Shown here piece after piece: positions 50,468-57,868 of a DNA stretch of 64,000 nt. This DNA comes from Paenibacillus riograndensis SBR5 (GTDB lineage Bacteria; Bacillota; Bacilli; Paenibacillales; Paenibacillaceae): positions 7,557,903 to 7,621,902 of the forward strand of contig NZ_LN831776.1 of NCBI RefSeq assembly GCF_000981585.1, in the 5' to 3' direction. The translations under genes were made by a program, and so were the position numbers. A model generated the notes under the pieces. That model did not search any database. It worked only from the letters and a program-made list of their open reading frames with translations, and was not told where the DNA came from. Positions within the stretch are counted from its first letter, which is position 1; every line of letters starts with the position of its first letter.

Positions 50468-51619
50468 TTAGAGTGAATAAGAATAGGCCAATAAAGCCAT
50501 GAGATTGTCAAAAGAGTATGCCTGTCCGGTATCCGTATTGCCGAATCCCCCGGACAGCGGACTGTCCGCATCCCGAATCTGGAATTCATTCATTCTCGCA
50601 ATCGCTGCTTGATAGAGTGAATCGTCTCCGGCCTCAGTGCCGATCATGGCCGCCAGGGCGTAAATCGCGGTGGAACGGATATCGTTCAGCGGCTTCCCGT
50701 CACGGGAGTATTGCCCGTACAGCGTTCCGGCCGCGACCTGTTCCTTGATATAGCGGATACTCGCAGGCTTCTGCTGGCCCGTCTCGGTCAAATGCAGAAT
50801 GCTCAGCAGGGATTCCACCGTATTGATATGATCAGAGCTGTAAGCCCCCGTATGATAATCGAATCTTGTCTCATAGAAAGGGAATGCATCCGAGAGGTAG
50901 CCTTCCTCCAGAATTCCATCCATGTTATGCATTAATATACCGCGTAATTCGCTGGATATCGATAGTTTTCGAAAGATGCCCAAATCAATATAACACAAAG
51001 TTACGAAGTTGTTCGTAGTTTTGTAAACATTGTCGTAAAAATCATACATATATCCTTCTTTTACATTATTGTCATAGAACCGCTGGCCGTATTTATCTGC
51101 CTGCTCTGTATAGGCCGGCTCATCAAAAACTTCCCCCGCCTCATACAGGGCGCCAATCAGCCGCAGGTCATCCACCGCAGCATTCACAGGATACCGCTTC
51201 TGCTGTTTGGGGCTGTAGCGGTAGCTGAAGCCACCTTCCATGTCAAAGGTTTGCTGCGCCAAAGCCCACTGGCCGGCAAACTGCTCCTTATCACCGGCAA
51301 GCGCAGCTGCGCTCATCAGGAGTGAGGCAGACTCGCTCAGCACCTCATGACCGGTGGCCGCTTCCCCGGACTGGTCTGTCTCCAGCAGGTTCGTATACAC
51401 GCCGTAGGGACCGGTAAGCTGTTTCGCAATAAATGTGCTCAGCTCCTGCCGCTCTTTCCGGTGATCCATACTCCGGCTGGTAACGGCCGATGGCGATGGC
51501 GATGCGGTTACCGTCTCACCCGCTGTGGCGGCGGGTCCGGTAGCAGCTTCTTTGCCGCTGCAGGAAGCCAGCAGAAGAGAGAGTACAAGTAAGGTTGCTG
51601 CGCTACGTTTGCTTGTCAA
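50468..51619 (-). CDS. GH8-like glycoside hydrolase lipoprotein (PssZ/BcsZ-like)
   Basis: This 383-residue surface lipoprotein has a signal (TLLVLSLLLASC, lipobox LASC) and a Pro/Ser/Thr linker. The (alpha/alpha)6-type domain has GHEVLSESASLLMSAAALAG, with the GH8-type acid Glu, and YPVNAAVDDLRLIGALYEAG, with the likely base Asp. C-terminal DIRSTAIYALAAMIG and DNLMALLAYSYSL finish the toroid. GH8 enzymes linked to cellulose or Pss operons trim the polymer. It is the first gene here, at the promoter end, whereas in Listeria pssZ is separate from pssA-E. The start is TTG, with AAGGA upstream. Confidence 0.82.
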   Translation of the reverse strand: MTSKRSAATLLVLSLLLASCSGKEAATGPAATAGETVTASPSPSAVTSRSMDHRKERQELSTFIAKQLTGPYGVYTNLLETDQSGEAATGHEVLSESASLLMSAAALAGDKEQFAGQWALAQQTFDMEGGFSYRYSPKQQKRYPVNAAVDDLRLIGALYEAGEVFDEPAYTEQADKYGQRFYDNNVKEGYMYDFYDNVYKTTNNFVTLCYIDLGIFRKLSISSELRGILMHNMDGILEEGYLSDAFPFYETRFDYHTGAYSSDHINTVESLLSILHLTETGQQKPASIRYIKEQVAAGTLYGQYSRDGKPLNDIRSTAIYALAAMIGTEAGDDSLYQAAIARMNEFQIRDADSPLSGGFGNTDTGQAYSFDNLMALLAYSYSL

Positions 51620-51745
51620 TCCATCACATCCTTAAGAAAACCATATGTTTTCTATATAATATAACGGTAATATAAGTCACAGAATTAACCATACAATTGA
51701 TCATTATGTGTCAAATTCAATGAAAGATGCAATTTTTTCTGGAAT

Positions 51746-51785
51746 AAACGGCTGCACCGTGCTTCACTGGACGGTGCAGCCGTTT
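51746..51785. promoter_or_regulatory. Perfect 15-bp hairpin upstream of the exopolysaccharide operon
   Basis: AAACGGCTGCACCGT (51746-51760) pairs perfectly with 51771-51785 around a 10-nt loop. It is not at the end of any plus-strand gene and is followed on neither strand by a good T-run, so it is not an obvious terminator. It lies about 130-165 bp upstream of the first gene. Confidence 0.6.
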
Positions 51786-51899
51786 CAGATTCTAGGTTTA
51801 GATTTAGGCTCCCTGCTTGGATTGTAACAAACTCATGTGGAAGTATTGTAAAAAAGTGAACTTAAATTCTCCCTTCCTGCTCCCCCGCAAACGCTAGTT

Positions 51900-52075
51900 G
51901 GAAAAAGGTTAACTAATTCGCCCCAGCGCACCTATTCTCCGGTAATGAAGTGGAAAAAGGTACACTAATTCAGCTCATTTCGCCCCAGACGGAGAAAACC
52001 AGCACAATTAAGTTCCCTTTTTCCACTTAACTCTCACAATTGTTGATTTTTCACAAAAATAAGTTCCCTTTTTCC
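51900..52075. repeat. Cluster of four motifs in facing pairs, 51-52 bp spacing
   Basis: Plus-oriented GGAAAAAGGTTAACTAATTC (51900) and GGAAAAAGGTACACTAATTC (51952) are 52 bp apart. Minus-oriented AATTAAGTTCCCTTTTTCC and AAATAAGTTCCCTTTTTCC end at 52024 and 52075, 51 bp apart. The same plan occurs at 20886-21111. Confidence 0.85.
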
Positions 52076-52177
52076 AACTATCAACAGAAAACGCTTGGAA
52101 CTCCGGTCACTGCCCACCCTGCAATTTTCATGTTTGTATCACCGTTCCGATTGAAATCCGCATAGTTTCCCAGATAA

Positions 52178-52220
52178 CAAGAAAGAGCTGCCCGGGCCAG
52201 CCCGACCCGTACAGCTCTCT
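52178..52220 (-). terminator. Terminator of the ATP-grasp/K+ channel operon
   Basis: On the minus strand AGAGCTG and CAGCTCT pair, with an inner GGG/CCC-type stem, followed by TTCTTG. It lies about 30 bp after the channel gene's stop codon. Confidence 0.7.
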
Positions 52221-52251
52221 GGTTAAAGTATTAAAATTTGAGGCCTGTCTG

Positions 52252-53265
52252 CTAACCCTTGATCTGCCGGTAAGTCTCCTCATCCGAGACGATATAGAGC
52301 CTGGCGTCCTGCGGGATCGGCTGATCCAGCTTGCGGTTGATGCCCAGATCTCCCCGGTCTGACAGCAGCGTCGCCCCCCGGCGCAGCAGGGCCTGAAAAG
52401 CATCGCCGTAGGTATGCCAGGCGGCATCCCGCGGAATTTCATAGATGTCATCCCCATGCTCCCGGCTGAGCAGCTGGGTGATGACCTCGGAGTTCCCTTC
52501 CTGCAGCGCGGAGCGGACAGCCAGTCTTGAAATGGCATCATGCGACAGCACGAATTCATTGACATGGACATGGCGGAAGTTTTGGATGTTCTTCTCCTGC
52601 ATAATCTCAACAGTGGTATGTACCTGCGGGGCAATCCGCTCAATACTGGAGGCGATCAGCAGGGTTTTGCCGTCCGTCAGGGAAGCCTCGTCGATCCGCG
52701 TATCCCCGAATACAATGGCAGCCTTGGCTCCTTCAATACCAGCCTTCAGCAGGATGTCGTCGCTGGAAGGGTCACCGCTGATGAAGTGCACATGCTCCAT
52801 CTGCTGCAGCGGATGCTGGCCGCTCTCGTCAATAATGACAATCCGGCAGTCCGGCGTATAGCAGAGAATCTCGTCAACAGCGGCTTGCGTTTTGCGGTTC
52901 CAATTGATCAGTACCACATGGTCTTTCCCGTGAAAGCTCAACGTCCCGGCTCCTCTCCTTCTTTGCAGTTCCCCCATGGCATCAATAATCTTCCCGATAA
53001 CCAAACTGAGCAGCCCTATGCCAAAAATATACAGAAATATGGTAAACAGCTTACCCGCCACCGTGCCGGCAAAAAAGTCGCCGTAGCCCACGGTGGACAT
53101 CGTTGTCATAACCCAATAAAAAGCATTAAACCAGTTACTAAAGGTTCCCGGCTCCAACAAAAAGGCAATAGTTGCGCTAATTACAATAAAAGCCAGGATA
53201 ATCAGCCCAATGGACTTTTTCTTCAGACGCATCAGCTTGCCGGACAAACGCAGCAGAAAATGCAT
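52252..53265 (-). CDS. Two-helix potassium channel with RCK (TrkA-N) domain
   Basis: This 337-residue channel subunit has a first helix IGLIILAFIVISATIAFLLE, a pore helix and the filter TMSTVGYGDFFAGTVAGKLF (TVGYGD). A second helix (FLYIFGIGLLSLVIGKIIDA) and a cytosolic RCK/TrkA-N domain follow (HVVLINWNRKTQAAVDEILC, FISGDPSSDDILLKAGIEGA). It resembles MthK and Bacillus YugO and should pass K+ under ligand or redox control. It is the last gene of an operon with DUF350, a lipoprotein, an ATP-grasp ligase and a Gly/Ser-tailed protein, suggesting that channel activity is tied to whatever the ligase makes. Confidence 0.92.
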   Translation of the reverse strand: MHFLLRLSGKLMRLKKKSIGLIILAFIVISATIAFLLEPGTFSNWFNAFYWVMTTMSTVGYGDFFAGTVAGKLFTIFLYIFGIGLLSLVIGKIIDAMGELQRRRGAGTLSFHGKDHVVLINWNRKTQAAVDEILCYTPDCRIVIIDESGQHPLQQMEHVHFISGDPSSDDILLKAGIEGAKAAIVFGDTRIDEASLTDGKTLLIASSIERIAPQVHTTVEIMQEKNIQNFRHVHVNEFVLSHDAISRLAVRSALQEGNSEVITQLLSREHGDDIYEIPRDAAWHTYGDAFQALLRRGATLLSDRGDLGINRKLDQPIPQDARLYIVSDEETYRQIKG

Positions 53266-53269
53266 CAGC

Positions 53270-53671
53270 TTAAATGATCAGACTGCTGACGGCAAAGGCC
53301 GTGCCGACGAACACCAGGCAGAGCATCACGCCTACGGCGACATTCCCCTGCTTCAGATGATCCGAGATCTTGAAGCCCGGCGTGAACAGCTCGAAGATCC
53401 AGTAGGCGGCAATCAGGCAGACATAGCCTACCGCGAACCAGAGCATCATGAACCAGATCGAGGTATTTGTATATGCCGCCACACCAAGGATAATCGCCGT
53501 AGCCAGAAATTTGCCCCCAAGAGCCAGGGCTACAGCCACATTGCCTTTCTTCAACTCGTCCATATCCTTGAACGGAGTCATCAGGGTGAATACAACCATC
53601 CCGAGCACCTGCAGCAGAATAATCGTCAACACACTCACTACCAGATTAATAACAATCGTCAATTTGCCCAC
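53270..53671 (-). CDS. DUF350 (YjfL/YshE-type) membrane protein
   Basis: This 133-residue protein has four hydrophobic helices in two similar halves, each with a Lys-Gly-Asn-Val-Ala motif (ELKKGNVAVALALGGKFLA and HLKQGNVAVGVMLCLVFVG), the DUF350 internal duplication. E. coli yjfL, a DUF350 gene, lies in an operon with yjfM (DUF1190) and yjfC (ATP-grasp ligase), the same partners as here. The biochemical role is unknown. The start is GTG at 53671, or TTG at 53662 behind GGGGGTGGG. It overlaps the lipoprotein gene slightly. Confidence 0.88.
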   Translation of the reverse strand: MGKLTIVINLVVSVLTIILLQVLGMVVFTLMTPFKDMDELKKGNVAVALALGGKFLATAIILGVAAYTNTSIWFMMLWFAVGYVCLIAAYWIFELFTPGFKISDHLKQGNVAVGVMLCLVFVGTAFAVSSLII

Positions 53672-54315
53672 CCCCGGAATTTTGCGTAGGCCGAATCATA
53701 ATCGGCGAAATCATGCACTTCCTCCAGCACCACGGAGGCTTTCTTTTGTTTCTCCAGCGCTTTATACCGCTTATCGTCGATCGGCTGCTTGATCCGGTTG
53801 CCGGAAGGCAGCTCAACCACGGCAAAATTTCTGGTTTTGTTTTTGTACTCTGTCTTGTAGACGCCGACAAGATCCACATCCGTCGTAATGGACACCTTCA
53901 GACGGGTCAAATCCTCGGCAGCCGTCTTCTGGTCGGCATACGATTTGATCGTGGTCCAGGAGGACAGGCGGATATCGTTCTTCTGATCCGCATCCGTTAC
54001 CAGTTCGGCATCCATAAACTGCAGGGTCCATATCTTATCGCCGGTGGCATAATTGCCGTCGTTCGGAAGCATCTCATTATCCGGAAGTACCGTCATATCA
54101 CTGCCGATAAGGTCGCCCACCGTGCCTTCCACCACCCGGTAGTCCCACGGCACGCGCGATACGCTGTCGGTCGACTCCGTATCCGTATGAAATACACTGC
54201 CCGTGTTGCCGGAACATGCGCCAAGCAGCAGCACTGCCATCAACAGCATGCCAAGCATTGCTCCAGCACGAACTTTGCTGTACCTCCCGCTCCAGCGGTT
54301 TCTATCCTTATTCAT
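53659..54315 (-). CDS. Lipoprotein of unknown function in the ATP-grasp operon
   Basis: This 218-residue predicted lipoprotein has the signal AGAMLGMLLMAVLLLGACSG with lipobox LGAC. The mature part is mixed alpha/beta (VPWDYRVVEGTVGDLIGSDM, IWTLQFMDAELVTDADQKND, TRNFAVVELPSGNRIKQPID). I cannot place it in a family. It may be a divergent analogue of the extra envelope proteins seen near yjfC or of DUF4178-type proteins, but that is a guess. ATG 54315 is preferred over TTG 54321 because GGGAG is 8 nt upstream. It overlaps the ligase gene by 8 bp. Confidence 0.75.
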   Translation of the reverse strand: MNKDRNRWSGRYSKVRAGAMLGMLLMAVLLLGACSGNTGSVFHTDTESTDSVSRVPWDYRVVEGTVGDLIGSDMTVLPDNEMLPNDGNYATGDKIWTLQFMDAELVTDADQKNDIRLSSWTTIKSYADQKTAAEDLTRLKVSITTDVDLVGVYKTEYKNKTRNFAVVELPSGNRIKQPIDDKRYKALEKQKKASVVLEEVHDFADYDSAYAKFRGWAN

Positions 54316-55525
54316 CTTCAAGCTCCCTCACTCCTAGCGCGATAAAATGGCTGGCGTTGCCTGTAATCGGTCCGCCTGCGCGGCCCAAAAGCCCGCAAGG
54401 CACGCCGTTGATCACGAACATGCCGGTCAGCAGGTGAAGCTCCCCTTCCGGGGTCTGGATACGGGCCAGCTCCGCCCGCTTCTGATATACCGTCGGGAAC
54501 AGCACGCTGCTGTCGAAGCCGTCCTCATCGGCAAGCTCCAGCGCCCCGCTGTCATCGAAAATCCGCACCGAGCCGCCTTCACGGCCGAAGACGGATTTGG
54601 ATACAAAGCTGCCGGAGAATACCGGCTTGTTGTAGGTCGGAAGAATGTAACTGGCTATCGCCTGGCGTTCGTCCTCGCTGAAGAGCAGCCCCAGCTCATA
54701 CATCCCCCATACGGCGGCGATCAGCCCCTTGGACTGCAGCAGGATGCTGTGCGGACCGTTGAACAGCTGAAGCTGTCCGCTCTCAATGGCATAGGCAAGC
54801 GCCTCTCCGCCATCGTCCACCGCCATCCATTCCTTCGGATAGAGGGCGAACATCCGCTTGATGATCCGGTTCTCCGCATCCCTGACCGTCCCTTCGTCGA
54901 TCCACAGATCCAGACAGTCGACGCAGCGGATGTCCAGACCGCTGTGCGCCACCAGCGCCTCAATCGTTCCGGAATCCTCCTGATGGGTTCCGTAAGCGAC
55001 ACAAGCCGCCGTATCCGGCTGTTCGATGCTCCAGGCAGCGGCCAACCGTTCCTTCATGCCGTTGTTCCGGCTTGAAATACCGGCTTGCCCGCAAATCCAC
55101 GGCGTAGCAACCGATGCTTCCACATAGCCGGTTGGTGTATCCGCATTCAGCTCCAGCAGCTTGATCGTGCCGTCGCCGGCTATGGCGAAATCGAATCTGG
55201 CGTACCGGCTGATCAGCCCCGGCTCCGGCAGCGGAGTGTCATCCAGCATCTGCCACAGCACCGGAGGAATGCCAAGCAAATCATACAAATCATGCCGCCT
55301 GTGCACATAGCGGACAGCCTTGTCGAGGATGCTCCAGAGCTTAACGGAAGCCTCCTCCAGCTCTTTGTAGGTCTCACCGCGCATCACGGCAACCGCGTCG
55401 AGCCAGTACTCCTCATCTTCCAGGTCAGCCCAGGTAAATCCGAGCTTATGCAGCTGTTCTACACGGGGTGCCCGTTCCAGCCCCGACTGGTCAAGGTATT
55501 CAAAGACGCTGTCTGCAGGGCTCAT
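54308..55525 (-). CDS. Glutathionylspermidine synthase-like ATP-grasp ligase (YjfC/YgiC family)
   Basis: This 405-residue carbon-nitrogen ligase is of the Gsp-synthase fold. The family pattern is visible: RYARFDFAIAGDGTIKLLEL, NADTPTGYVEASVATPWICG (NADTPT is the conserved metal/ATP signature), YNKPVFSGSFVSKSVFGREG with the phosphate loop FGREGG, and the C-terminal TGMFVINGVPCGLLGRAGGP. It lacks the amidase half of true GspS, so it should only form amide bonds, possibly between a polyamine or amine and a peptide or protein tail. It is coupled to the upstream Gly/Ser-tailed protein gene by a 4-bp overlap. Confidence 0.9.
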   Translation of the reverse strand: MSPADSVFEYLDQSGLERAPRVEQLHKLGFTWADLEDEEYWLDAVAVMRGETYKELEEASVKLWSILDKAVRYVHRRHDLYDLLGIPPVLWQMLDDTPLPEPGLISRYARFDFAIAGDGTIKLLELNADTPTGYVEASVATPWICGQAGISSRNNGMKERLAAAWSIEQPDTAACVAYGTHQEDSGTIEALVAHSGLDIRCVDCLDLWIDEGTVRDAENRIIKRMFALYPKEWMAVDDGGEALAYAIESGQLQLFNGPHSILLQSKGLIAAVWGMYELGLLFSEDERQAIASYILPTYNKPVFSGSFVSKSVFGREGGSVRIFDDSGALELADEDGFDSSVLFPTVYQKRAELARIQTPEGELHLLTGMFVINGVPCGLLGRAGGPITGNASHFIALGVRELEDE

Positions 55526-56274
55526 CCGCCAAAACCGCTTTTGCCGGAGCTGCTCTTGCCGGCACTTGATCTTGAGGTAGAGCCTGATTTGCTGCTGGAA
55601 CTGCCGCTCTTGGACGAGCCCAGACCGCTGGATTTGCCGCCGACTCCGCCTGCCTTGCTCGAAGTATTCCTTCTGGTGATCGAGCCGGTGGACGAGGTGG
55701 AGGTACGGGGCTTAACCACTGAACCGGCTACAGGCTTGTTCTGAAAGCTGCCGCTGTTATAGCTTGGAGCCTTGTACTTAGTCCGTGTTCCGCCATAATA
55801 AGTTGGACGGTCGTTGTACCAGCCTCTTGATGAATAAAATGAGCCGCTGTTGAACAGCATGTGGTACAGCAGCAGATCATCCCAGCCGAAGCCGGAATTA
55901 TAGCCGCCGTAATTGTTAATAACCGTTGTTCCGCCTGAGGTGACTACTCCTTGTCCTTCCTGCAGCACCTCTCCGGCATTTTCTTCCGGGTAAGGGATGT
56001 TCCAGTCTACATTTTTGTCAAAATAGGCTTTGACTTCCTCCGTGGACCAGGATACCAGCTTCGGTTCCTCAGAGCTGCCGCTTGCCGCGCCGGTTCCCCC
56101 CGGAATAAATAAGGCATTGGCCAGCAGGGCAATGCCCAGCGACGTAGACAATACCCGGAGCGGTTTGCCGTCCGGGGTGAATAGTCTGGATGCCGCCGAT
56201 TCCTTCACTGGTGCTTTGGCTGGTTCCTTTGCTTGTTCATCTTGCGCCAATTTGAGATCCTCCTCTTCTGACAT
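55522..56274 (-). CDS. Membrane-anchored Gly/Ser-tailed protein, YgiB/YjfM (DUF1190)-like
   Basis: This 250-residue protein has a charged N-terminus and one membrane helix (LSTSLGIALLANALFIPGGT). A short folded part (VSWSTEEVKAYFDKNVDWNI) is followed by a low-complexity Gly/Tyr/Asn then Ser/Lys/Gly tail (about 105-250) ending SSAGKSSSGKSGFGG. E. coli YgiB, partner of the ATP-grasp protein YgiC, also ends in a low-complexity RGGFG/SSRSMGG-type tail. By position and composition this is a candidate acceptor or scaffold for the ligase. Assignment to DUF1190 is by resemblance only. Its ATG overlaps the preceding stop (TAATG). Confidence 0.7.
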   Translation of the reverse strand: MSEEEDLKLAQDEQAKEPAKAPVKESAASRLFTPDGKPLRVLSTSLGIALLANALFIPGGTGAASGSSEEPKLVSWSTEEVKAYFDKNVDWNIPYPEENAGEVLQEGQGVVTSGGTTVINNYGGYNSGFGWDDLLLYHMLFNSGSFYSSRGWYNDRPTYYGGTRTKYKAPSYNSGSFQNKPVAGSVVKPRTSTSSTGSITRRNTSSKAGGVGGKSSGLGSSKSGSSSSKSGSTSRSSAGKSSSGKSGFGG

Positions 56275-56492
56275 TATTCTTCTGTCCGCATGGGAACGAG
56301 CAGGAGCTCAAGCTTTCCCGCATCCACATTCAGCCGTCCTTCCACAGCTTCATACTCCCGGCTGCCGACCACAATATAATTGACATGCTCCAGAGCCGCA
56401 ACCATGTTCATGCTCCAGGTGCGCTCCTCAATCACACGCAATTCGCCTTCCGGCATCTTTTCAAACAGGATGACATTCATGCCATTATCCAC
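56274..56492 (-). CDS. Small hypothetical protein, first gene of the ATP-grasp operon
   Basis: This is a predicted cytoplasmic protein of about 72 residues (MDNGMNVILFEKMPEGELRV, SMNMVAALEHVNYIVVGSRE, LNVDAGKLELLLVPM), probably a small alpha/beta fold. No family is recognised; DUF2170-like proteins occur at the same place in the E. coli yjf operon, but I cannot confirm homology. The GTG at 56492 after AGGATGAGG is preferred over the GTG at 56516, which lacks an SD. It is coupled to the next gene by TAATG. Confidence 0.6.
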   Translation of the reverse strand: MDNGMNVILFEKMPEGELRVIEERTWSMNMVAALEHVNYIVVGSREYEAVEGRLNVDAGKLELLLVPMRTEE

Positions 56493-56518
56493 TTTTTCCT
56501 CATCCTTCCTGATCACTA

Positions 56519-57868
56519 TTATGCTTCTGATACGCTCTTAGCGCCATTTCGTTTCATTTCCATCCCCCGGGAACGCCGATATAAAAGCACCAGGCTCAGA
56601 GAGCACAGACTCACCGCAAGCAGAATTCCATAGACATTTCGGTAAGCGCCCGAAGGTGCAAGAGTCCGCTGGGCATGCAGCAGCAATCCGCAGACGGCAA
56701 CGGAGACCGACCCGCCAAAGAACTGGATCAGCTGCAGCAGCCCCATCCCCGACCCGATCCAGGTGCGCGGCAATATGCCGGAGGCCTCATTATTCAGAGA
56801 AGCCATGGTTGCCGAAAAAGCCGGCGAGAAGCACAGATACCCGAACAGGAGCACGAGCGGGGATACCTGCAGCCCCAGTGCAAAGACGGCCAAGACAGTG
56901 GCCAGTATCCCGTGGCCAATCAGCAGGAAGCGCAAATTGCCGTACCGGTCGATCCAGCGGCCGACAAAACGGGTCAGAAATGCCGATAAAATGGCACCGG
57001 GCGCAATATACAGGCCGATCATCAGCGCAGATTGATGGAATAGATTGGACAGCGCAAGCGGCATCAGGAATAAATTCCCGAGATTCAGCACCAAAATACT
57101 GAAGCCGATGGCTGTCAGCTTCAGATACCCGGGCATTTGGAGCAGCTTGGGATTAATAAAGGAATCCCGGGCTCTGCGGAGATGGATGGCATGAACCGCA
57201 AAGGACGCGACACTCACCGCAAGCCATATGTAGGATTGACTGGTTACAGCCACGAGCAGGCTCCCGGCATTGATAACCGTCAGTGCTGCTCCGTACAGAT
57301 CAAAGACCGCCGCCTGGGGCTGTTCTTTGGGCAGCAAATACAGCAGCACAGGCAGAACCAGCAACACCAGACATGTAACGCCAAACAACCCGTTCCAGCC
57401 AAAATATTGGCTGATAAGGCCGCCTACGATCGGTCCCAGGCCGAAAGCCATAGCGCTTCCGACAGAGATCATGGCGATGGTGGCACCGCGTCTGGCCACG
57501 GGCACATACCGGCTGGCGAGCACCAGCCCCAGGCCCGCCATGACTCCGGCGCCTGCGGATTGCAGAATCCGCGTGATAAGCAGAACATTGAAGCTGTGCG
57601 CAAATAGTCCGATTACCGAAGCGAGGCCCAGCGTAGTCAGGCCAACCGTCAGCAGCCTGCGGAGGGGCACGAGATCCGACAGCCTGCTGTAGATCACTGT
57701 AGACAGCGCATAGCCGATGGAATAGCTGGAGATCACCCACGATCCCAGATCGGCGGAAATATGCAAATCCTGAATAATTGTGGGCAGCGAGACATTGAAC
57801 ATAGTGGTGTTCATCACAACGATAAAGAGGCAGAAGGTCCATAGCGGCATTACGACTTTGTCATTCAC
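56519..57868 (-). CDS. MFS multidrug efflux transporter (DHA2-like)
   Basis: This 449-residue transporter has 12-14 helices. Family motifs are VMNTTMFNVSLPTIIQDLHI in helix 1 (motif D1-like), YSRLSDLVPLRRLLTVGLTT (motif A) and LGPIVGGLISQYFGWNGLF (motif C, antiporter). It probably exports drugs or metabolites using H+. It lies 26 bp upstream of the small hypothetical gene and may be read together with the ATP-grasp operon, though no functional link is evident. Start GTG with GGAG upstream. Confidence 0.9.
   Translation of the reverse strand: MNDKVVMPLWTFCLFIVVMNTTMFNVSLPTIIQDLHISADLGSWVISSYSIGYALSTVIYSRLSDLVPLRRLLTVGLTTLGLASVIGLFAHSFNVLLITRILQSAGAGVMAGLGLVLASRYVPVARRGATIAMISVGSAMAFGLGPIVGGLISQYFGWNGLFGVTCLVLLVLPVLLYLLPKEQPQAAVFDLYGAALTVINAGSLLVAVTSQSYIWLAVSVASFAVHAIHLRRARDSFINPKLLQMPGYLKLTAIGFSILVLNLGNLFLMPLALSNLFHQSALMIGLYIAPGAILSAFLTRFVGRWIDRYGNLRFLLIGHGILATVLAVFALGLQVSPLVLLFGYLCFSPAFSATMASLNNEASGILPRTWIGSGMGLLQLIQFFGGSVSVAVCGLLLHAQRTLAPSGAYRNVYGILLAVSLCSLSLVLLYRRSRGMEMKRNGAKSVSEA

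Follow-up and report, generated by a model that had tools for sequence, protein, structure and literature searches.

The stretch of DNA analysed here (the window) comprises 64,000 nucleotides of the Paenibacillus riograndensis SBR5 genome (contig NZ_LN831776.1) and carries on its minus strand a compact run of six genes, which encode in order a small protein, an exported-type protein with a Ser/Gly/Lys-rich C-terminal tail (hereafter the tail protein), an ATP-grasp ligase of the PF03738 family that includes Escherichia coli YgiC and YjfC, a lipoprotein, a DUF350 membrane protein and an MthK-like K+ channel. We consider it somewhat probable that the ligase, using ATP, attaches a polyamine to the tail protein at the carboxylate of its C-terminal Gly-Gly. 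The support for this proposal consists of the family of the ligase, its catalytic residue set, the recurrence of a terminal Gly-Gly on ligase partners with dissimilar bodies, the adjacency of the tail and ligase genes, the occurrence of the same pair in phages, and the polyamine genes of the host. Given the chemistry of the family, the nature of the tail end and the pairing of the genes, C-terminal polyamine capping is the simplest reading. What appears to be new here, as judged from sequence comparisons, is the terminal Gly-Gly and its recurrence on dissimilar ligase partners; no description of either was found in the literature searched, which did not cover Pederick 2023, Li 2019 and Sui 2012, so that an earlier mention is possible. 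The 2009 study by Iyer and colleagues, reportedly a survey of amidoligases, could also hold a prior mention of the Gly-Gly end.

The ligase and its predicted activity

The window ligase matches PF03738 across residues 23-396 (E 5.7e-56; 190.7 bits against a curated cut-off of 29.3) and is the single PF03738 match in the host genome, which amounts to 7.92 Mb on a single contig. Its nearest solved structures by sequence are those of the two E. coli proteins, namely YjfC (PDB: 7uk6, E 4.3e-27) and YgiC (PDB: 7uk8, E 1.5e-16). Seven of its residues, R110, D112, E125, N127, K266, K310 and R382, align respectively with R316, D318, E330, N332, K498, K533 and R598 of E. coli Gss and are identical in every case; we take these positions to have the ATP/Mg and reaction-centre roles of their counterparts in the Gss structure. 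When 16 diverse ligases are aligned with Gss, R316, D318, K498, K533 and R598 are invariant, while E330 and N332 differ solely in the second of two Roseomonas copies. The window ligase carries the full Gss catalytic set, and peptide-spermidine ligase activity is predicted for it.

Gss itself joins spermidine to the carboxylate of the C-terminal glycine of a tripeptide. RefSeq gives both YgiC and YjfC the name peptide--spermidine ligase, for which Pederick 2023 is reportedly the source, and the view of an earlier note on this DNA that the biochemistry of these ligases is unsettled was thus an overstatement. No native protein substrate for YgiC/YjfC-type ligases was found named in the literature searched, Pederick 2023 not being covered. 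According to the accessible text of one study, YgiC is without glutathionylspermidine synthase activity (PMC12506659).

Some plasmid-borne relatives show variations in the ligase gene or its surroundings. A Roseomonas plasmid (L146 5926-8276) encodes two tandem ligases, the second of which has D and E at the positions of Gss E330 and N332 and may be a pseudoenzyme. On a Curtobacterium plasmid (L145 5887-7070) the ligase gene is in pieces and adjoins a gene annotated as DUF1190, and on an Arthrobacter plasmid (L143 7170-8654) the gene after the ligase, which overlaps it by 4 bp, belongs to the amino-acid permease family AA_permease_2.

A recurrent Gly-Gly end on ligase-linked proteins

The tail protein of the window ends in GKSGFGG, as the earlier note had reported in proposing the low-complexity tail as the acceptor of the ligase; comparison of C-termini supported the tail as a candidate for this role and narrowed the putative site to the terminal Gly-Gly, rather than the whole low-complexity tail. 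The related loci considered here are the best 80 of 93 returned for the window ligase, nearly all of them from Paenibacillus by title; the ligase of Paenibacillus jilunlii is 98% identical to that of the window. Tails are available from 79 of these loci, the contig of L028 beginning inside the ligase, and the tail of L068, which ends in FGG, was added by hand. Left out of the counts were the window itself (L001), L153 and L161 (duplicates of L152 and L149), L082 and L083 (ligase absent or its end only) and L086-L114, which are shorter copies of L115-L134 or weak matches and include the Paenibacillus loci L087 and L091.

Within this clade the linker of the tail varies in length and sequence and the end is nearly constant: FGG forms the C-terminus of 75 of the 79 relatives and Phe occupies position -3 in 76, the four tails that do not end in FGG (L070, L071, L074 and L075) accompanying ligases that are 59-61% identical to that of the window. 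At least 326 homologues of the window tail were matched, and Gly-Gly terminates 119 of 120 among the matches listed, which are close relatives. The clade tails have one hydrophobic segment, the N-side of which is the more positive in 78/79, and a lipobox pattern is found in none of the 79. Such a pattern occurs in 31 of 45 tails outside the clade, and YgiB has LAGC.

Outside the clade, 48 further ligase loci were sampled from Bacillota, Proteobacteria, Actinobacteria, one cyanobacterium and phages. Tails were picked by low-complexity composition at positions -43 to -4 together with a hydrophobic segment, blind to the last three residues, and those of L085, L136, L145 and L159 were included by hand on the basis of annotation or position. 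Among the resulting 45 tails, 29 end in Gly-Gly, as against 1.8 expected from composition; another 14 have Ser as the last residue, and the remaining two end in Ser-Gly and in Met. When the set was thinned by hand to one tail per lineage, Gly-Gly was retained in 25 of 35 (1.2 expected), with Gly frequencies of 0.74, 0.83 and 0.06 at positions -1, -2 and -3. In a control set of 1599 other open reading frames (ORFs) of at least 120 aa from the same loci, eight end in Gly-Gly.

The bodies that carry this end are diverse, those of 34 lineages (the thinned set without L125) falling into 12 similarity groups, in eight of which Gly-Gly is the majority end. YgiB ends in SMGG and YjfM in HWGG; at least 1008 homologues of YgiB were matched, with Gly-Gly terminating 117 of 120 among the matches listed, again close relatives. 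A set of 15 DUF1190-type proteins, which came from phages as well as from enterobacteria and other Proteobacteria and were selected after their ends were known, has seven invariant columns, both terminal glycines among them.

An origin of the Gly-Gly as a by-product of the ribosome-binding site of the ligase gene, or of the ATGA overlap, was considered and rejected. In Sulfitobacter, Rhodobacter, Paraburkholderia and Roseomonas loci the tail gene follows the ligase gene and all four tails end in Gly-Gly; hence, neither a ribosome-binding site nor a start-codon overlap explains this end. The codons speak against the same origin, as do the non-overlapping E. coli genes: of 101 Gly-Gly-ending tail-ligase pairs (a few of them duplicates), 17 have GGAGG or AGGAG among the final 9 nt.

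The earlier note had also treated the 250-residue tail protein as a relative of YgiB, and had named a failure of this kinship as a refuter. The kinship was not borne out: no DUF1190 match was found in the whole genome with Pfam, and profile-profile comparison with hhalign gave a probability of 4.8%. Despite their dissimilar bodies, the two proteins have in common the design of a low-complexity tail with a Gly-Gly end.

Phage and plasmid loci

A tblastn search of 50,697 phage records recovered the ligase in 76 and 72 records with two queries, duplicates and a few bacterial contigs included, and the phage and plasmid loci studied are a small selection from lists of 76, 72, 158 and 148 matching records. 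A viral scan with the Bacillus phage ligase as the query returned no relative. The ten phage-type loci comprise seven phage records with flanks of about 2.5 kb (from phages of Aeromonas, Achromobacter, Pseudomonas (two), Delftia, Vibrio and Sinorhizobium), a Bacillus phage pair, represented by a B. subtilis plasmid whose ligase is identical, the IMG/VR contig L152, of which L153 is a near-identical second copy, and the Pseudomonas plasmid L150. A tail protein is encoded near the ligase in all ten, though in the Aeromonas phage about 0.5 kb of DNA with small ORFs separates the two; eight of these tails end in Gly-Gly and the other two in GS and GGGGM. Seven phage-type tails were scanned, and six of them have a match to one or other of two PHROG families, both of unknown function.

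DUF350 is found within the available stretch in one of the ten, that of Achromobacter phage Motura (L155 668-4261), where the genes are, in order, an annotated homospermidine synthase of the saccharopine-dehydrogenase type, a tail lipoprotein with a weak DUF1190 match directly downstream of it, the ligase, a small ORF and DUF350. This run possibly brings together a donor enzyme, an acceptor candidate, the ligase and a membrane partner. In Vibrio phage VPMCC14 (L159 3655-4311) a K+ channel with a TVGFG filter directly follows the ligase, and Na+/H+ exchangers are encoded near the ligase in Pseudomonas phage SYP (L156 3767-5023) and on the Pseudomonas plasmid (L150 1941-3230). As a separate observation, on Bacillus plasmids with a phage-type ligase (L149 7105-7725 and L161 5213-5833) the tail-ligase pair is followed by an annotated poly-gamma-glutamate hydrolase gene.

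The candidate polyamine donor

The classical spermidine route was rejected for the host, there being no match to S-adenosylmethionine (AdoMet) decarboxylase in its genome and a spermine synthase family match that falls below the cut-off; a carboxyspermidine-type route is indicated instead. The genome encodes nspC, the carboxynorspermidine decarboxylase (510 bits, cut-off 409), adjoining which is a carboxynorspermidine-synthase-like gene (432 bits, under the model cut-off of 800), and has two matches to the Orn/Lys/Arg decarboxylase family. Together, these genes make spermidine or norspermidine a plausible donor.

Proposed mechanism and alternative explanations

In the proposed mechanism, the ligase would use ATP to cap the product of the preceding gene, the tail protein, with a polyamine at its terminal Gly-Gly carboxylate, the C-terminal end of the tail being the putative acceptor and capping probably taking place before or along with export. 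The capped envelope protein is predicted to carry a polycation at its end. This may alter envelope charge, and DUF350, together with a cation channel or antiporter in the loci that have one, may sense or exploit the change.

Several observations weigh against this proposal. The tails look exported and the window ligase, the N-terminus of which is not hydrophobic, looks cytosolic, so that ATP-dependent capping would need to precede or accompany translocation. A return of the tail end to the cytosol through a second membrane segment appears doubtful, since a mid segment with a mean hydropathy of at least 1.2 is present in just 10 of 45 tails and the clade median is 0.43. The Gly-Gly is not obligatory, 16 of the 45 tails outside the clade and four of the 79 inside it ending otherwise, and a tail was not found in three of the 48 other ligase loci (L132, L135 and L147). 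The four hand-added tails all end in Gly-Gly, the count without them being 25 of 41, and one of them, that of L145, adjoins the ligase gene in pieces. On the donor side, the host lacks a match to AdoMet decarboxylase, and its carboxynorspermidine-synthase-like gene reaches 432 of the 800 bits of the model. Finally, the motif [GSAN]G[FYILVW]G is over-represented within the tails, occurring in 36 of the 45 outside the clade (shuffled mean 6.8) and in 73 of the 79 inside it (shuffled mean 11.5), so that recognition could centre on that motif.

With regard to timing, a proteomic study lists YgiC as cytoplasmic and, in its accessible part, includes it in the set of proteins whose level on the inner membrane is increased in a min mutant (PMC4858940). 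Its presence there would fit capping before or with export, without proving such timing.

The apparent separation of the two proteins also agrees with an alternative that we regard as unlikely, namely that the ligase makes a small peptidyl-polyamine and that the tail protein is a separate, co-expressed envelope partner, for example a binder or carrier of the conjugate. Gss, the best-studied relative, acts on a tripeptide and the name given to the E. coli enzymes is that of peptide ligases, both of which point in this direction; however, a small conjugate would leave unexplained the recurrent Gly-Gly on dissimilar bodies as well as the tail and ligase as a recurrent unit of the phage-type loci.

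The enrichment of the internal motif, and the several motif-bearing tails that end in Ser, would suit a ligase that modifies the tail at an internal G-G-[FYILV]-G or at nearby side chains, with the Gly-Gly end serving folding, export or DUF350 docking. We judge this to be quite improbable, as the chemistry of the family takes place at a C-terminal carboxylate, and acidic side chains are scarce in the last 40 residues (means of 0.03 in clade tails and 0.56 in other tails), which leaves few other carboxylates. Very unlikely is a phage-shock-protein (PSP)-linked envelope-stress operon, in which the tail would be a cationic surface protein, the ligase would have other substrates, and the channel and DUF350 would set membrane potential: the tails are indeed basic (median net charge +4 over the last 40 residues) and Ravi 2024, in its accessible part, links such genes to PspA and to polyamine genes, as well as to a K+ channel, DUF350 and DUF1190 (PMC11237479), but a scan of the eight neighbouring proteins gave no PspA-type match, and in 26 of the 79 related stretches, some of them short contigs, no channel was found.

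Beyond the window, we tentatively advance a wider form of the capping proposal, in which bacteria and phages may share the capping of Gly-Gly ends of dedicated envelope proteins with spermidine or a similar amine by one ATP-grasp enzyme, with YgiB, YjfM and the Paenibacillus tail protein as native substrates. If true, this would be a single-enzyme counterpart of SUMO-spermidine conjugation in bacteria and phages, and a C-terminal modification of bacterial proteins by a polyamine, which would connect the envelope and perhaps, in the case of this operon, K+ flow with the supply of polyamines. Ligases of the YgiC/YjfC type have a wide distribution that takes in many phages, and capping would show the purpose of the enzyme family. 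The recurrent -GG-COOH on a neighbouring protein reduces the substrate question to one mass measurement in E. coli K-12.

Organization of the gene run and its other members

The six genes abut one another, with overlaps of 1, 4, 14 and 13 bp and one 4-bp gap (Table 1), and the five from the small ORF through DUF350 occur together in 78 of the 80 related loci. This linkage exceeds chance and confirms that the gene run is real, bearing out the description of the locus as a compact operon in the earlier note. That note had further held that the association of the ligase with DUF350 crosses phyla and that the channel is a member of the operon. The former holds, on the evidence of the phylum survey described below and of E. 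coli yjfL-yjfM-yjfC; the latter holds in so far as the channel is common in the clade, but it is neither obligatory there nor frequent elsewhere.

Table 1. Features of the six-gene run, in window coordinates
Feature	Position	Strand	Remarks
Small first gene, 80 aa	56274-56516	-	ORF; 1-bp TAATG overlap with tail gene; upstream of tail gene in 79/80 loci
Tail protein, 250 aa	55522-56274	-	4-bp overlap with ligase gene; N-terminal hydrophobic segment, conserved body, basic Ser/Gly/Lys tail
Last codons of tail gene, Phe-Gly-Gly-stop	55522-55533	-	Stop overlaps ligase start (ATGA); proposed acceptor end
ATP-grasp ligase, YgiC/YjfC family, 405 aa	54308-55525	-	PF03738; 14-bp overlap with lipoprotein gene
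Lipoprotein, 220 aa	53659-54321	-	Lipobox LGAC; model beta-rich; 13-bp overlap with DUF350 gene
DUF350 membrane protein, 133 aa	53270-53671	-	PF03994; 4-bp gap to channel gene
K+ channel, MthK-like	52252-53265	-	TVGYGD filter and RCK domain; Ion_trans_2, TrkA_N/RCK

The DUF350 protein matches PF03994 with an E of 1.1e-29, and its AlphaFold2 model (mean pLDDT, the predicted local distance difference test score, 83.2) consists of four long helices in two similar halves; no PDB sequence match was found for it, nor any Foldseek match at E 0.001. Two further DUF350 genes lie elsewhere in the host genome (at 2512481 and 4412139). In a survey of 398 genomes of the phylum of the window, the ligase was matched at E 1e-20 or better in 22, and in 20 of these DUF350 is encoded on the same contig within about 3 kb of it. 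Among the 376 genomes outside the 22, about 20 have a DUF350 match (E 1e-17 or better) anywhere.

The channel has Ion_trans_2 (E 6.2e-18) and TrkA_N/RCK domains, matches MthK in the PDB (1lnq, E 2.5e-20), and shares with it the two-helix pore, the T-V-G-Y-G filter and the RCK domain. It is present in 53 of the 79 related loci that hold DUF350, lying within 150 bp of the latter in 45 of the 53, and in three of the 48 ligase loci outside the clade, many of which have short flanks. In a fold search the model of the lipoprotein shows weak similarity to small beta domains only, and its identification with DUF4247, the lipoprotein of the variant operon of Ravi, was rejected for want of a match at the locus. 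Neither the lipoprotein nor the tail protein has a Pfam match at E up to 1; the small ORF has no Pfam match at the same threshold and no NCBIfam match, and did not align with a 153-aa protein of another operon in the phylum.

Beyond the run, short imperfect repeats, GTGGAAAAAGG...ACTAATTC, and an inverted AAGTTCCCTTTTTCCAC were noticed by eye between the operon and the next gene (window 51890-52090). The downstream lipoprotein-type gene (window 50468-51619), which has a weak, sub-cut-off pectate-lyase-like match, adjoins the operon in closer relatives only.

Comparison with known systems

The E. coli loci ygiB-ygiC and yjfL-yjfM-yjfC have the same ligase family, the same catalytic residues and an adjacent Gly-Gly-ended tail protein, with DUF350 in the yjf operon. 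The Paenibacillus run differs from them in that its tail protein is not DUF1190 by test and is without a lipobox, in its additional genes for a lipoprotein, for a small protein at the start and, in many loci, for a K+ channel, and in that no PspA, DUF2170 or DUF2491 match was found among the neighbours scanned. With respect to DUF1190 itself, the window tail has the C-terminal Gly-Gly, and lacks both profile similarity in the body and the lipobox.

An association of ATP-grasp ligase, DUF350, K+ channel, DUF1190 and polyamine genes was already described by Ravi 2024, as the accessible text records (PMC11237479). The PspA-linked operons described there share with the present run the ligase, DUF350, a K+ channel with an intracellular sensing domain and an exported protein; their PspA-CesT/Tir pair, AdoMet decarboxylase, polyamine oxidase and DUF1190 were not found here among eight proteins (50468-57868). 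That account of the operons, in the same accessible part, makes no mention of a C-terminal Gly-Gly (PMC11237479).

E. coli Gss (GspSA) has the ATP-grasp family and the catalytic set in common with the window ligase, which is without the amidase domain. The chemistry of Gss takes place at the C-terminal glycine carboxylate of a tripeptide, and the present proposal would move this step onto a protein. The likeness to ubiquitin-like modifiers with -GG ends is confined to the C-terminus, the tail protein having no Pfam match (E up to 1), to a beta-grasp domain or to any other family. The conjugation of spermidine to the -GG carboxylates of SUMO and ubiquitin, which is ATP-dependent according to the accessible part of its description (PMC12270671), is eukaryotic and employs E1 and E2 enzymes on a beta-grasp protein without an ATP-grasp ligase; no homology to the present system was seen. 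As far as that part of the source goes, the placement of spermidine on a -GG end furnishes a chemical precedent for the capping proposed here (PMC12270671).

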